DNA from: Leifsonia sp. C5G2
GTDB lineage: Bacteria > Actinomycetota > Actinomycetes > Actinomycetales > Microbacteriaceae
Direction: 5' to 3'
Length of the DNA stretch: 64,000 bases
Assembly: GCF_013359685.1 (NCBI RefSeq)
Contig: NZ_JABFMV010000002.1
Coordinates: forward strand, 292,360-356,359
Shown one piece after another: positions 53,949 to 57,782 of this stretch. The notes beneath the pieces were generated by a model that was not told the DNA's origin, did not search any database, and saw nothing but the letters and a program-made list of their open reading frames with translations. The number at the start of each line of letters is the position of its first letter. The stretch's first letter is position 1. A program made the translations under genes and the position numbers.

Positions 53949-53961
53949 CTTGTTGTCTCTG

Positions 53962-54033
53962 TGGGCGATACTGGGATCGAACCAGTGACCTCTTCCGTGT
54001 CAGGGAAGCGCGCTACCGCTGCGCCAATCGCCC
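53962..54033 (-). tRNA. tRNA-Val (anticodon GAC)
   Basis: 72 nt without an encoded CCA. Acceptor GGGCGAT/ATCGCCC, anticodon stem CTTCC/GGAAG with loop CTGACAC giving anticodon GAC, and a GGTTCGATCCC T-arm. Last gene of the minus-strand tRNA operon. Confidence 0.96.
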
Positions 54034-54056
54034 GAGTCTGACTTGCGTCAGATTCG

Positions 54057-54127
54057 AGGTGGATACGGGATTCGAACCCGTGTATACGGCTTTGCAGGCC
54101 GCTGCCTCGCCTCTCGGCCAATCCACC
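54057..54127 (-). tRNA. tRNA-Cys (anticodon GCA)
   Basis: 71 nt. Acceptor GGTGGAT/ATCCACC, anticodon loop CTGCAAA with anticodon GCA, T-arm GGGTTCGAATCCC. CCA not encoded. Middle gene of the tRNA operon. Confidence 0.96.
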
Positions 54128-54193
54128 GAACGCCACAACACGGAAAAACCGTACCGTACCCGAGAGGCCCGATCCGAAGACCGGGCCGACTCG

Positions 54194-54266
54194 AGCGGAT
54201 GACGAGACTCGAACTCGCGACCCTCACCTTGGCAAGGTGATGCGCTACCAACTGCGCTACATCCGC
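54194..54266 (-). tRNA. tRNA-Gly (anticodon GCC)
   Basis: 73 nt. Acceptor GCGGATG/CATCCGC, anticodon stem TCACC/GGTGA with loop TTGCCAA, anticodon GCC. CCA not encoded. First gene of the minus-strand operon. Confidence 0.96.
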
Positions 54267-54274
54267 ATTTCGTT

Positions 54275-54329
54275 CCGCAGTTCCCTGCGGCACTTGAAAG
54301 ACTCTAGCCGATCCGCGCGCGCAAGACAA
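54275..54329 (-). promoter_or_regulatory. Promoter of the tRNA-Gly-Cys-Val operon
   Basis: Minus strand TTGTCT (54329-54324), 17-bp spacer, TAGAGT (54306-54301). A CCGCAG-N4-CTGCGG stem (54275-54290) lies between the start point and tRNA-Gly, possibly a processing signal. Confidence 0.7.
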
Positions 54330-54400
54330 AACCGGACAGGCCGTCCGGGTGTGTCGCCGGGCGGGCCCGTGTCGATGTGCATCCGGGCCTCCGAGTCGGC

Positions 54401-54406
54401 TAGTAT
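54401..54406 (+). promoter_or_regulatory. tRNA-Val(CAC) -10 box
   Basis: TAGTAT, 31 bp before the mature tRNA; the -35 is weak. Confidence 0.55.
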
Positions 54407-54437
54407 CGAATCTCGCAGCCGCTGAAGCGGGTGCGGA

Positions 54438-54510
54438 TGGGCGATTGGCGCAGTTGGTAGCGCGCTTCCTTCACACGGAAGAGGTCATCAGTTCGAGTCT
54501 GGTATCGCCC
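54438..54510 (+). tRNA. tRNA-Val (anticodon CAC)
   Basis: 73 nt. Acceptor GGGCGAT/ATCGCCC, anticodon stem CTTCC/GGAAG with loop TTCACAC, anticodon CAC. CCA follows directly in the DNA (54511-54513), unlike the three other tRNAs here. Very similar to tRNA-Val(GAC) and in opposite orientation. Confidence 0.96.
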
Positions 54511-54517
54511 ACCACCA

Positions 54518-54627: not shown

Positions 54628-55143
54628 TCAGCGCCAGCGGTAGCGCGCCGAGAGCGCCTCGCGCACGAGCGCGAACCGGCGCGCGTCCAGCGCGGCCGCC
54701 TCGCGGCGCATGCCGGCCTGGTGCACCCGGTAGACGCGGTCGAGGCGCACGAAACTCGGGCGGCGGCGGCCGTCCCACTCCCCCGTGCCGATCGGCAGGT
54801 ACTCCGGGCGCCCGGGATGCTCCTGGCTGGTCAGCGGCACGGCGAGCACGGCGCCCGACGGCTCCGCGGCCACGACCAGCACCGGCCGGTCCTTCCCGCG
54901 GCCGTCGGCCTCCTCGTAGGGCACCCAGGTCCAGACGATCTCGCCGGGGTCGGCGTCGCCGTCGAGACTCGGGGTGTACGCGGTGCGGATGCGACCGAGG
55001 CGCCGCGGGTCGACCTGCACGGTCGCGGTAGTGCCGGTACGACCCGGCTCACTCGATGGTGGGGCGGTCCTGCCCGCGCGGGAGGGGCGGAACAGCGCGG
55101 TCACTGCCGACAGGATGCTTCTCACGGATGCCACGTCGGGCAC
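54628..55143 (-). CDS. PemK/MazF-like protein, no antitoxin adjacent
   Basis: Up to 171 aa. The C-terminal about 120 residues show the PemK/MazF barrel pattern: GEIVWTWVPYEEADGRGKDRPVLVVA, then VLAVPLTSQEH and SFVRLDRVYRV. Such proteins are often mRNA interferases but many solitary copies have other or unknown roles. The start is uncertain: ATG at 55143 overlaps the upstream Amt-like gene by 95 bp, and internal GTG codons (for example at residue 8) are possible. Residues 1-50 are low-complexity. Confidence 0.7.
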   Translation of the reverse strand: MPDVASVRSILSAVTALFRPSRAGRTAPPSSEPGRTGTTATVQVDPRRLGRIRTAYTPSLDGDADPGEIVWTWVPYEEADGRGKDRPVLVVAAEPSGAVLAVPLTSQEHPGRPEYLPIGTGEWDGRRRPSFVRLDRVYRVHQAGMRREAAALDARRFALVREALSARYRWR

Positions 55144-56293
55144 GATAGCGGACGCGCGTCAGCCCGATCGTGAAGCGCAGGGCCAGCCCGAGCAGCAGCG
55201 ACACGGTGACGGAGTACAGCAGCACCGCCATCCCGGCGATCCCCTGCGCGATGAACAGGTCGAAGTTGCCGCTGTCGACCATCCCGCTGCCGGTCGCGAA
55301 GAGGCCGGGGAAGAGCAGGCCCACGAGCCCGCCGACGATCGCGATGACGCAGAGCCTCAGCGCCGGGCCGAAGCGCGCCCGGGCCGCGAGGTCGAGCATC
55401 GTCGCGCAGGCCAGCGACGACAGCGCGCCGACGAGCATGCACCAGCCGAGCGTCAGCACACCGGATGCGGCGGTCACGGCCACCAGACCGGCGAACGCAC
55501 CGCAGAGCGCACTGCTGAGGGTGGGACGCCGGAGCAGCACGGCATCCACCAGCATCCACATCAGAACCCCGGTCGCCGAGGCCAGGAAGCCGCCGACCGC
55601 CATCAGCGACGCGTAGGCGTCGAGCGCGGCCTCGGAGCCGACGATGAGGCCCAGCCAGCCCACCCACAGCATCGCCCCGCCGATGGCCATGAGCGTCGGG
55701 CGCGGCGACAGCGGCGGCAGGTGCTCGCTCCGCCCGCCCGCCAGCAGGAGCCCGACCGCACTGCCGCCTGCGGCGACGACCAGGAGCGCTCCCCCGAAGT
55801 CGACGACGTGAAGGCCCGCGACCGCCCAGCCGTCGTCGAGCGCGAACACCCCGTACGCCACCGGGTAGACCACGAGCGGCAGCCAGAACACGGCGAACAC
55901 GATCCAGGCCCGCAGGGTCACGCGCGACGCCACCGCGACCGCCACGACGGCGGTGACCAGGACCAGCACGGCGATGAGGTAGCCCGCCCGCGCCGCAGGG
56001 TATGGCGACGAGGATGCGGGGTCGGTGCCGGCGACGGCGGCAAGACCCGGGTCCGGCACGCCGAGCAGGTGCCGCACGAGCGGCCGGCCGGTCACCGCGC
56101 CATACCCGCCGAGCACCGAGAGCACGACCGCGACGGCCGCCCCCACCAGCACGAACCGGAACGCGCGTGTCGCCCGGGCGCGGCCCGCCATCCCGCCGGA
56201 GAAGAGCGCCAGTCCGAAGGCGGCCAGCAGTACGAGCGCGCCGCAGAAGAACAGCAGCAGCGCGTCCACCTGGTCGGGCGTCGCGTGAGCCAT
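55049..56293 (-). CDS. Degenerate Amt-family membrane protein lacking the twin histidines
   Basis: 414 aa from ATG at 56293 (AHATPDQVDALLLFF), with AAGGAGAGG upstream. About eleven hydrophobic segments. It aligns with the neighbouring AmtB over most of its length (WIVFAVFWLPLVVYPVAYGVF; GGAMLWVGWLGLIVGSEAALD; GGLVGLLF), but conduction residues are lost: no His in VVDFGGALLVVAAGG (AmtB has VH at 178-179), Ala318 where AmtB has His328, and Tyr105/Val109 for the gate pair Phe111/Phe115. The structural Asp of DFxGG is kept. It is not expected to conduct ammonium as AmtB does; a sensing or structural role is possible. It occupies the place where glnK usually follows amtB. Confidence 0.85.
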   Translation of the reverse strand: MAHATPDQVDALLLFFCGALVLLAAFGLALFSGGMAGRARATRAFRFVLVGAAVAVVLSVLGGYGAVTGRPLVRHLLGVPDPGLAAVAGTDPASSSPYPAARAGYLIAVLVLVTAVVAVAVASRVTLRAWIVFAVFWLPLVVYPVAYGVFALDDGWAVAGLHVVDFGGALLVVAAGGSAVGLLLAGGRSEHLPPLSPRPTLMAIGGAMLWVGWLGLIVGSEAALDAYASLMAVGGFLASATGVLMWMLVDAVLLRRPTLSSALCGAFAGLVAVTAASGVLTLGWCMLVGALSSLACATMLDLAARARFGPALRLCVIAIVGGLVGLLFPGLFATGSGMVDSGNFDLFIAQGIAGMAVLLYSVTVSLLLGLALRFTIGLTRVRYRARRGIREKHPVGSDRAVPPLPRGQDRPTIE

Positions 56294-56340
56294 GCCTCTC
56301 CTTCGCCGGAAACCGTCACCCACACCCTAGCGACAGCGGA

Positions 56341-56370
56341 ACGGGGCGCCGCCCGAAGGCGGCACCCCGT
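56341..56370 (-). terminator. Terminator after amtB
   Basis: ACGGGG-C-GCCGCC pairs with GGCGGC-A-CCCCGT around a CGAA loop: two 6-bp stems with one mismatch, 23 bp past the amtB stop and upstream of the Amt-like gene, so the two may be separately transcribed. Confidence 0.7.
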
Positions 56371-56392
56371 CCGATGCCTGGAAGACGCGCGC

Positions 56393-57744: not shown

Positions 57745-57782
57745 GTTTCGACAGAGGGCTGGTCGTGTTTCGCGGGTGTTAC
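57745..57782 (-). promoter_or_regulatory. GlnR box upstream of amtB
   Basis: Minus strand: GTAAC (57782-57778), 6 nt, GAAAC (57771-57767), 6 nt, AGCCC (57760-57756), 6 nt, GAAAC (57749-57745). This matches the known actinobacterial GlnR site gTnAC-n6-GaAAC-n6-gTnAC-n6-GaAAC in spacing and in three of four half-sites. A further GAAAC-N6-TTTAC pair lies upstream (57813-57798). GlnR activates amtB under nitrogen limitation in streptomycetes and mycobacteria. Confidence 0.75.

Follow-up and report, generated by a model that had tools for sequence, protein, structure and literature searches.

An Amt-fold companion of amtB in Leifsonia and other Microbacteriaceae that lacks the Phe gate and the C-terminal coupling motif of AmtB

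The analyzed DNA (the window) is a stretch of 64,000 nucleotides from Leifsonia sp. C5G2 (contig NZ_JABFMV010000002.1, positions 292,360 to 356,359). The genome (4.09 Mb, 35 contigs, 100% complete) possesses exactly two genes matching PF00909: the canonical ammonium transporter gene amtB and an adjacent gene, hereafter the companion. These genes and the signals around them are collected in Table 1. A PemK/MazF-like ORF (window 54628-55143, minus strand; PF02452, 53 bits) lies directly downstream of the companion and overlaps its 3′ end, provided that translation begins at the first GTG. This ORF is found at the same place in 10 of the 11 named Leifsonia loci. The region 53961-54514 carries tRNA-Val(gac), tRNA-Cys(gca) and tRNA-Gly(gcc) on the minus strand and tRNA-Val(cac) on the plus strand.

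Table 1. Features of the amtB-companion locus (positions in the window)
Feature	Position	Strand	Basis or place
Companion CDS, Amt-fold protein P0001	55049..56293	-	414 aa; ORF, PF00909, motif reading
TAGGGT, candidate -10 element of the companion	56324..56329	-	30 bp before the ATG
Terminator-like stem-loop, -36.8 kcal/mol as RNA	56333..56377	-	just after amtB
amtB, canonical ammonium transporter P0002, 427 aa	56393..57676	-	twin-His, Phe gate, C-terminal ExxGxD
GlnR-type box GTAAC-N6-GAAAC	57767..57782	-	upstream of amtB

The companion ORF begins with ATG and ends with TGA. In the Pfam scan, residues 14-379 matched PF00909 at 128.9 bits (E 2.6e-37), above the curated cut-off of 23.2. Given the length of the protein and the absence of any other Pfam match, no fused C-terminal signalling domain is present. 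The protein shares 33% identity with the neighboring amtB product over 413 columns (E 3e-52). Thus, the initial annotation, which had described an Amt-family paralogue that aligns with AmtB, was correct in this respect. With the AmtB model TIGR00836, however, the companion scored 158.1 bits, below the curated cut-off of 343.3, whereas the neighboring amtB scored 430.9. As judged from its sequence, the companion belongs to the Amt fold family, yet does not pass as a functional AmtB.

The AF2 model of the companion (the Leifsonia-type protein of the window), which was built from a shallow alignment, had a pLDDT of 68.3 and a pTM of 0.71. A control in which amtB was modelled from 18 aligned rows, just as shallow, was similarly modest (pLDDT 71.1, pTM 0.78), so that the depth of the alignment is probably the main cause of the moderate confidence. 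The top PDB match of the companion model by Z was E. coli AmtB (1u77; Z 38.9, rmsd 3.1 Å, 352 residues). Among the matches listed, AmtB, Amt and Mep2 entries (Z 35.0-38.9) stood above Rh50, RhCG and RhAG/RhCE (Z 30.2-31.8), and urea-channel entries (Z 10.9-11.7) were far under AmtB. The superposition thus agrees with the claim that the helix pattern is kept: the predicted fold and helix order are those of AmtB. Neither the Pfam scan nor the PDB structure comparison found another membrane family that fits the companion better than Amt. In the predicted model, the last long helix ends at residue 376, 38 aa before the end of the protein.

Residue numbers of E. coli AmtB are used throughout for the positions compared below. 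In the companion, the Phe gate pair is replaced (F107 by Val and F215 by Leu), H318 is replaced by Ala, and H168 corresponds to a gap or to Val, as the alignment shifts by one there. The equivalents of D160, W212 and S219 are retained, and the W148 position is Phe, as it is in the adjacent amtB. These readings agree with the initial annotation, in which both twin histidines and the Phe gate were given as lost and the structural Asp as kept. Furthermore, ICL1 RxK, ICL2 [ED]R and the C-terminal ExxGxD, the cytoplasmic coupling motifs of Amt/Mep trimers as described in PMC4852598, are absent from the companion.

The same annotation called the conduction pathway erased. Although much of the AmtB machinery is indeed lost, this wording is too strong. 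According to the portions of PMC9040831 cited here, conduction persists in twin-His variants of AmtB, selectivity is lost, and the variants are channel-like, some of them passing K+. Since such variants still conduct, the loss of the twin-His alone is no proof of silence. As for the gate, the F107A change in AmtB is described as having no effect. Transport by AmtB is abolished when F215 is replaced by A, H, E, S or W (PMC10433425); Leu is not among the replacements named in the portions cited. The replacement of F215 is a stronger sign of altered conduction than the loss of the twin-His. Considered jointly, descent from amtB as an Amt-fold paralogue and the losses listed above are almost certain for the companion.

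To place the companion among relatives, 28 Leifsonia genomes were examined. In all 28, the companion is located directly downstream of amtB in the same order and on the same strand; among the 11 named Leifsonia loci, the nearest relative is L. virtsii (93%). Within the genus, the companion evolves faster than amtB (54-92% vs 87-98% identity to the proteins of the window). The reading frame is open in 27 of the 28 genomes, and one copy (G005) is frameshifted. Among the 27 readable companions, His was found at position 168 in none and at position 318 in four, and Phe at position 107 in none; position 215 is Leu in 27/27. D160 is retained in 26/27, and W212, S219 and a Gly at position 162 in all. 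Five residue types occur at H318 and four at F107. The motifs ExxGxD, ICL1 RxK and ICL2 [ED]R were each present in 28/28 amtB products and in 0/27 companions; conversely, GM[VI]xSGNFD and [LM]RRPT were present in 27/27 companions and 0/28 amtB products. At the positions that we took to be pore-lining, the conservation of amtB exceeded that of its other positions (1.00 vs 0.92, p 0.011), whereas in the companion there was no difference (0.66 vs 0.67, p 0.75). The majority of the pore positions of the genus companions are still hydrophobic.

A profile of the genus companions also matched both genomes drawn from genus g50, at 462-464 bits, and the matched gene adjoins amtB. The other matches listed among 398 family genomes (about 206 bits or more) did not exceed 294 bits. 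Orthologues linked to amtB are thus found in 28/28 Leifsonia and 2/2 g50 genomes; we refer to these as the Leifsonia type.

Selection was estimated from pairs of companions. In ten close genus pairs, dN/dS of the companion (NG86) was 0.075-0.27 in nine pairs and 0.68 in one. The outlier pair consists of the two smallest genomes of the genus (2.6-2.7 Mb), and its value by YN00 was 0.41. In the same ten pairs, dN/dS of amtB was 0.006-0.144, exceeding that of the companion in one pair. The intact part of the frameshifted G005 copy gave 0.11-0.20 to five relatives. Overall, 18 of 19 companion pairs fell between 0.065 and 0.27. These values indicate that, as a class, the companion is preserved by purifying selection. 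Decay in sister strains, which had been raised as an argument against the initial annotation, is not seen for the class, and its signs are one frameshift and the one pair at 0.68.

When the DNA around amtB was read in other genera of the Microbacteriaceae, a much more diverged Amt-like ORF was found directly downstream of amtB in many of them (the distant type). In a Pfam scan of 10 further companions, three of the distant type had no match to PF00909. A profile of 14 companions detected the distant type in 52/398 family genomes, representing 17/85 genera, at E 1e-56. Genus g96 adds 7/8 drawn genomes below this cut-off, four of them recognized solely from length, score and place. The distant type thus occurs in at least 59/398 sampled genomes. 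As the g96 companions (116-140 bits) were missed at E 1e-56, weaker members escape such searches. An order-wide search at 1e-50 of 396 genomes, some of which may belong to the same family, detected no companion outside the family at its limited sensitivity; its single match (1/396) overlaps a canonical amtB and was rejected as an outside companion.

In 48/59 genomes with the distant type, the companion directly follows a canonical amtB and shares its strand, six of these loci being placed from match coordinates. One genome (G089) has an ORF inserted between amtB and the companion. In seven, the companion is next to zapE, or no amtB lies within the 6 kb read, and the sole canonical Amt of the genome is elsewhere. 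In the remaining three, the companion is near zapE and a canonical Amt was not found in the genome. The inserted ORF of G089 (L064:4717-5799) encodes 360 aa with a signal-like N-terminus and an anchor-like C-terminus. Because zapE and rhodanese genes are syntenic neighbors in most of the loci compared, the linkage to amtB is weakened as evidence.

Thirty distant members were aligned. D160 and Asp224 are present in 30/30 and Glu220 in 29/30, whereas F107, F215 and S219 are present in none. Position 215 is Trp in 21/30, and position 162 is Gly in 25/30. ExxGxD was found in 0/30 rows, which were cut to the profile match. H168 is kept in seven members, H318 in ten, and both in six; the absence of histidines as a mark of the group was therefore ruled out. 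Together with the 27 genus companions, F107 and F215 are gone in 57/57. The losses common to all companions examined are those of the gate and the tail, and the histidines are variably kept. Three other loci (L050:2581-4032, L051:3651-4985 and L058:5497-6834) each hold two amt genes in tandem. One gene of each pair carries H168E, as in fungal Mep1/3, and is canonical at the remaining positions checked.

In a maximum-likelihood tree of 66 proteins, which holds no Rh rows, the 32 companions formed one clade (100/100) inside the Microbacteriaceae amtB and outside the Leifsonia amtB. A recent duplication in Leifsonia was rejected: a single clade of companions and the amtB of Leifsonia, g50 and L054 gave an AU p of 0.0005. 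Judging from this tree, the companion is older than Leifsonia. The placement of the Leifsonia type was unchanged without the distant group. A single origin of both types is likely from the sequences but not proven, because long branches could mislead their union; Gly162 and the loss of gate and tail in both types agree with it.

The companion also persists where amtB has left its side. In genus g103 (L144-L150; L153-L158, L160), amtB has been lost from the side of the companion in 7/9 genomes. Apart from the companion, PF00909 matches a single gene in these genomes, an unlinked Amt of a different lineage that is 62-63% identical to the syntenic one. The companion is open in all seven, with dN/dS of 0.065-0.11 in nine pairs of more than 70% identity, although dS is saturated in some. 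In three g96 genomes (G186, G282 and G355; L171-L173), the companion is the only PF00909 match. Completeness is 96% for G186, a single contig, 93% for G282 and 87% for G355. In G186, the place of amtB is taken by an ORF on the other strand that we presume, from its sequence, to be an NhaA-like antiporter. The three g96 companions share 31-38% mutual identity, and second codon positions are the most and third the least conserved, a pattern that fits a protein under selection. D160, Asp224 and Glu220 are all present in them.

An earlier result, that a companion never occurs without a canonical Amt (0/34 vs 64/364 genomes with the genus profile at E 1e-40), was overturned by a PF00909 search of the 34 genomes. 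This search revealed four genomes with partial canonical Amt matches and the three g96 genomes with the companion only; two of the partial matches were looked at, and both are cut off near a contig end. With these corrections, companions occur in 68/368 genomes with a canonical Amt and 3/30 without (p 0.32), a difference that is not significant and is uncorrected for kinship. Since the companion persists in the three g96 genomes in which a canonical Amt was not found, it has a function independent of AmtB, at least there.

We also analyzed the gap between amtB and the companion. A stem-loop of -26 to -46 kcal/mol is present in this gap in 28/28 genus genomes. As 29 of 30 companion-less loci have hairpins of -26.7 kcal/mol or lower after amtB, the stem-loop is not specific to the companion and is most likely the terminator of amtB. 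A simple operon with amtB is weakened by this terminator-like hairpin. After the hairpin, 27/28 genus gaps contain TANNNT, against 5.2 expected from dinucleotide shuffles, and 25 contain TARGGT (0.4 expected); TANNNT lies 24-36 bp before the companion start codon in 24/27. TANNNT was also found within 150 bp after amtB at 14/15 other companion loci, compared with 11/30 companion-less loci. GlnR-type boxes, searched with the consensus given in PMC10704036, are located upstream of amtB at 11/11 named Leifsonia loci, 13/14 other companion loci and 15/19 companion-less loci. After amtB, no such box was found in 28 genus amtB-companion gaps or in 33 others. These motifs suggest that the companion probably has its own promoter without a nitrogen box.

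In the initial annotation, the companion was said to sit where glnK normally follows amtB, with no glnK present. The companion does occupy this position, and a profile search of the genome with PF00543 (PII), which was positive in 13/14 control genomes, gave no match. However, the absence is not tied to the companion, as 70/80 family genomes tested are without a PII match. PII matches were found in 9/51 companion-bearing genomes and 1/29 others (p 0.08), so that they are, if anything, commoner alongside companions, and the idea of a stand-in for GlnK is unsupported. The likeness to GlnK is one of position after amtB; the proteins are unrelated. The PII-type matches (54-72 bits) are in ten family genomes (G005, G009, G017 and seven more), nine of which carry the companion; those of the three genus genomes named are far from amtB by coordinate.

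The initial annotation suggested three roles: a non-conducting ammonium sensor, a regulator of AmtB trimers, or a transporter of another substrate. We tentatively propose that the companion may act on its own as a receptor-like member of the Amt family that does not transport. It has retained the body of an Amt protein and the vestibule core on the periplasmic side (Asp160 and, following helix 6, a Glu/Asp pair), and it has lost the features of gated transport, namely the Phe gate, often the twin-His, and the ICL1, ICL2 and C-terminal coupling motifs. The retained vestibule, lying over a closed or remodelled pore, might sense a small ligand, ammonium or another amine, and a change of shape might then be transmitted to a partner protein. 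Where AmtB is present, the companion may also mix with it. This reading fits best because the vestibule is kept, the pore altered and the tail lost, and because of the independence from AmtB and the separate promoter. Asp160 is present in 26/27 genus and 30/30 distant members, and the Glu/Asp pair is nearly invariant in the latter. Trp215, found in 21/30 distant members, is a change that abolishes transport in AmtB (PMC10433425). In contrast to amtB, conservation at the pore-lining positions does not exceed that elsewhere in the protein. The seven genomes with the only canonical Amt elsewhere, the three in which none was found, and the promoter-like element in a gap without a GlnR box also favor a receptor.

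Known sensor Amts have the same fold (6eu6, "Sensor Amt Protein", and the Sd-Amt1 receptor, 8qj3/8qj4; Z 35.7-36.1) and use it for sensing, and the proposed companion receptor would work in this manner. Known sensor Amts, however, bear fused signalling domains; the companion has none and has lost the Phe gate. The missing signalling domain speaks against a receptor, as does the adjacency to amtB in 48/59 distant-type and 30/30 Leifsonia-type genomes, which suits a tie to AmtB. Because F107, part of the ammonium site, is lost in 57/57 companions and S219 in 30/30 distant members, one conserved ammonium site across the group is unlikely. In the 6/30 distant members that keep both histidines, the pore may still have a use. 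The extended form of the receptor proposal is rather doubtful as a whole: that the Microbacteriaceae turned the Amt fold into a non-transporting receptor by keeping the vestibule, removing or plugging the gate and dropping the tail, and that it is uncoupled from GlnR, reports ammonium or an amine in cells that are mostly devoid of PII proteins, and outlives AmtB.

Nearly as likely as the receptor is a protein that conducts or transports another molecule (methylated amines, K+, CO2, ammonia gas or water) through a re-tuned hydrophobic pore. The mostly hydrophobic pore positions, the uniform Leu215 of the genus (27/27), the independence from AmtB and the K+-passing, channel-like twin-His variants of AmtB (PMC9040831) are consistent with such a protein. 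However, the pore-lining positions of the companion do not stand out in conservation, H318 and F107 drift among five and four residue types in one genus, and Trp occupies position 215 in most distant members.

A modulatory subunit of AmtB is somewhat less likely. It is improbable as a general role of the group but may apply in lineages that have both genes. Such a subunit would enter AmtB trimers, leave fewer conducting pores and break the coupling of a tail to its neighbor, like RhCE/RhD beside RhAG. The adjacency to amtB (28/28 genus, 2/2 g50 and 48/59 distant-type genomes), the coupling motifs present in 28/28 amtB products and 0/27 companions, and the mixed trimers of plant AMTs, in which one inactivated subunit inhibits its neighbors (PMC4852598, PMC5134999), favor it. 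Against it stand the three g96 genomes with a companion and no canonical Amt found, on which the initial suggestion of a regulator of AmtB trimers fails as a general role. Seven more genomes have only an unlinked Amt of about 62% identity, companions are not significantly tied to the presence of an Amt (68/368 vs 3/30, p 0.32), the linkage may be inherited gene order, and the companion has a separate promoter-like element. That the companion poisons AmtB trimers as a GlnK-free brake in lineages with both genes is quite improbable.

The plant heterotrimers differ in that their partners are AMTs switched by phosphorylation of the tail, whereas the tail motif of the companion is missing altogether. 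RhCE and RhD are not known to retain the histidines. According to PMC10769835, RhAG, RhD and RhCE form a heterotrimer, and RhD/RhCE might serve to anchor RhAG, which conducts ammonium. The likeness is that a family member accompanies a conducting relative. However, the companion is no Rh protein: it falls within bacterial amtB in the tree, and its model is nearer to AmtB (Z 38.9) than to RhCG (30.8) or 7uzq (30.2). Moreover, the companion also occurs without AmtB.

A decaying, functionless duplicate is very improbable and is refuted as a general explanation, although it may hold for single species: the frameshifted G005 copy, the pair at 0.68 (NG86; 0.41 by YN00) and the evolution faster than that of amtB (54-92% vs 87-98% identity) are outweighed by dN/dS of 0.075-0.27 in 9/10 genus pairs and 0.065-0.11 where amtB left the locus, by open frames in 27/28, by GM[VI]xSGNFD and [LM]RRPT in 27/27, and by an origin that predates the genus.

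Compared with AmtB as defined by TIGR00836, the companion shares the predicted fold, the helix order, D160 and W212, together with S219 in the Leifsonia type, and lacks the Phe gate, ICL1 RxK, ICL2 [ED]R and ExxGxD; both histidines are gone in the copy of the window. In searches of open-access papers, none of the titles or abstract openings listed described a companion group of this kind. If the companion is a receptor, it would be a sensor of the ammonium-transporter family without transport or a fused signalling domain, in bacteria that are mostly without PII. If it carries something else, this would be a new function of the Amt fold, and if it is a subunit, it would make the silent partners of Amt/Rh trimers accessible in a bacterial model. 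Either way, this natural variation separates the residues of the fold (Asp160, certain glycines and the Glu/Asp pair that follows helix 6) from those of ammonium transport, and the genomes with and without amtB are ready-made test cases.
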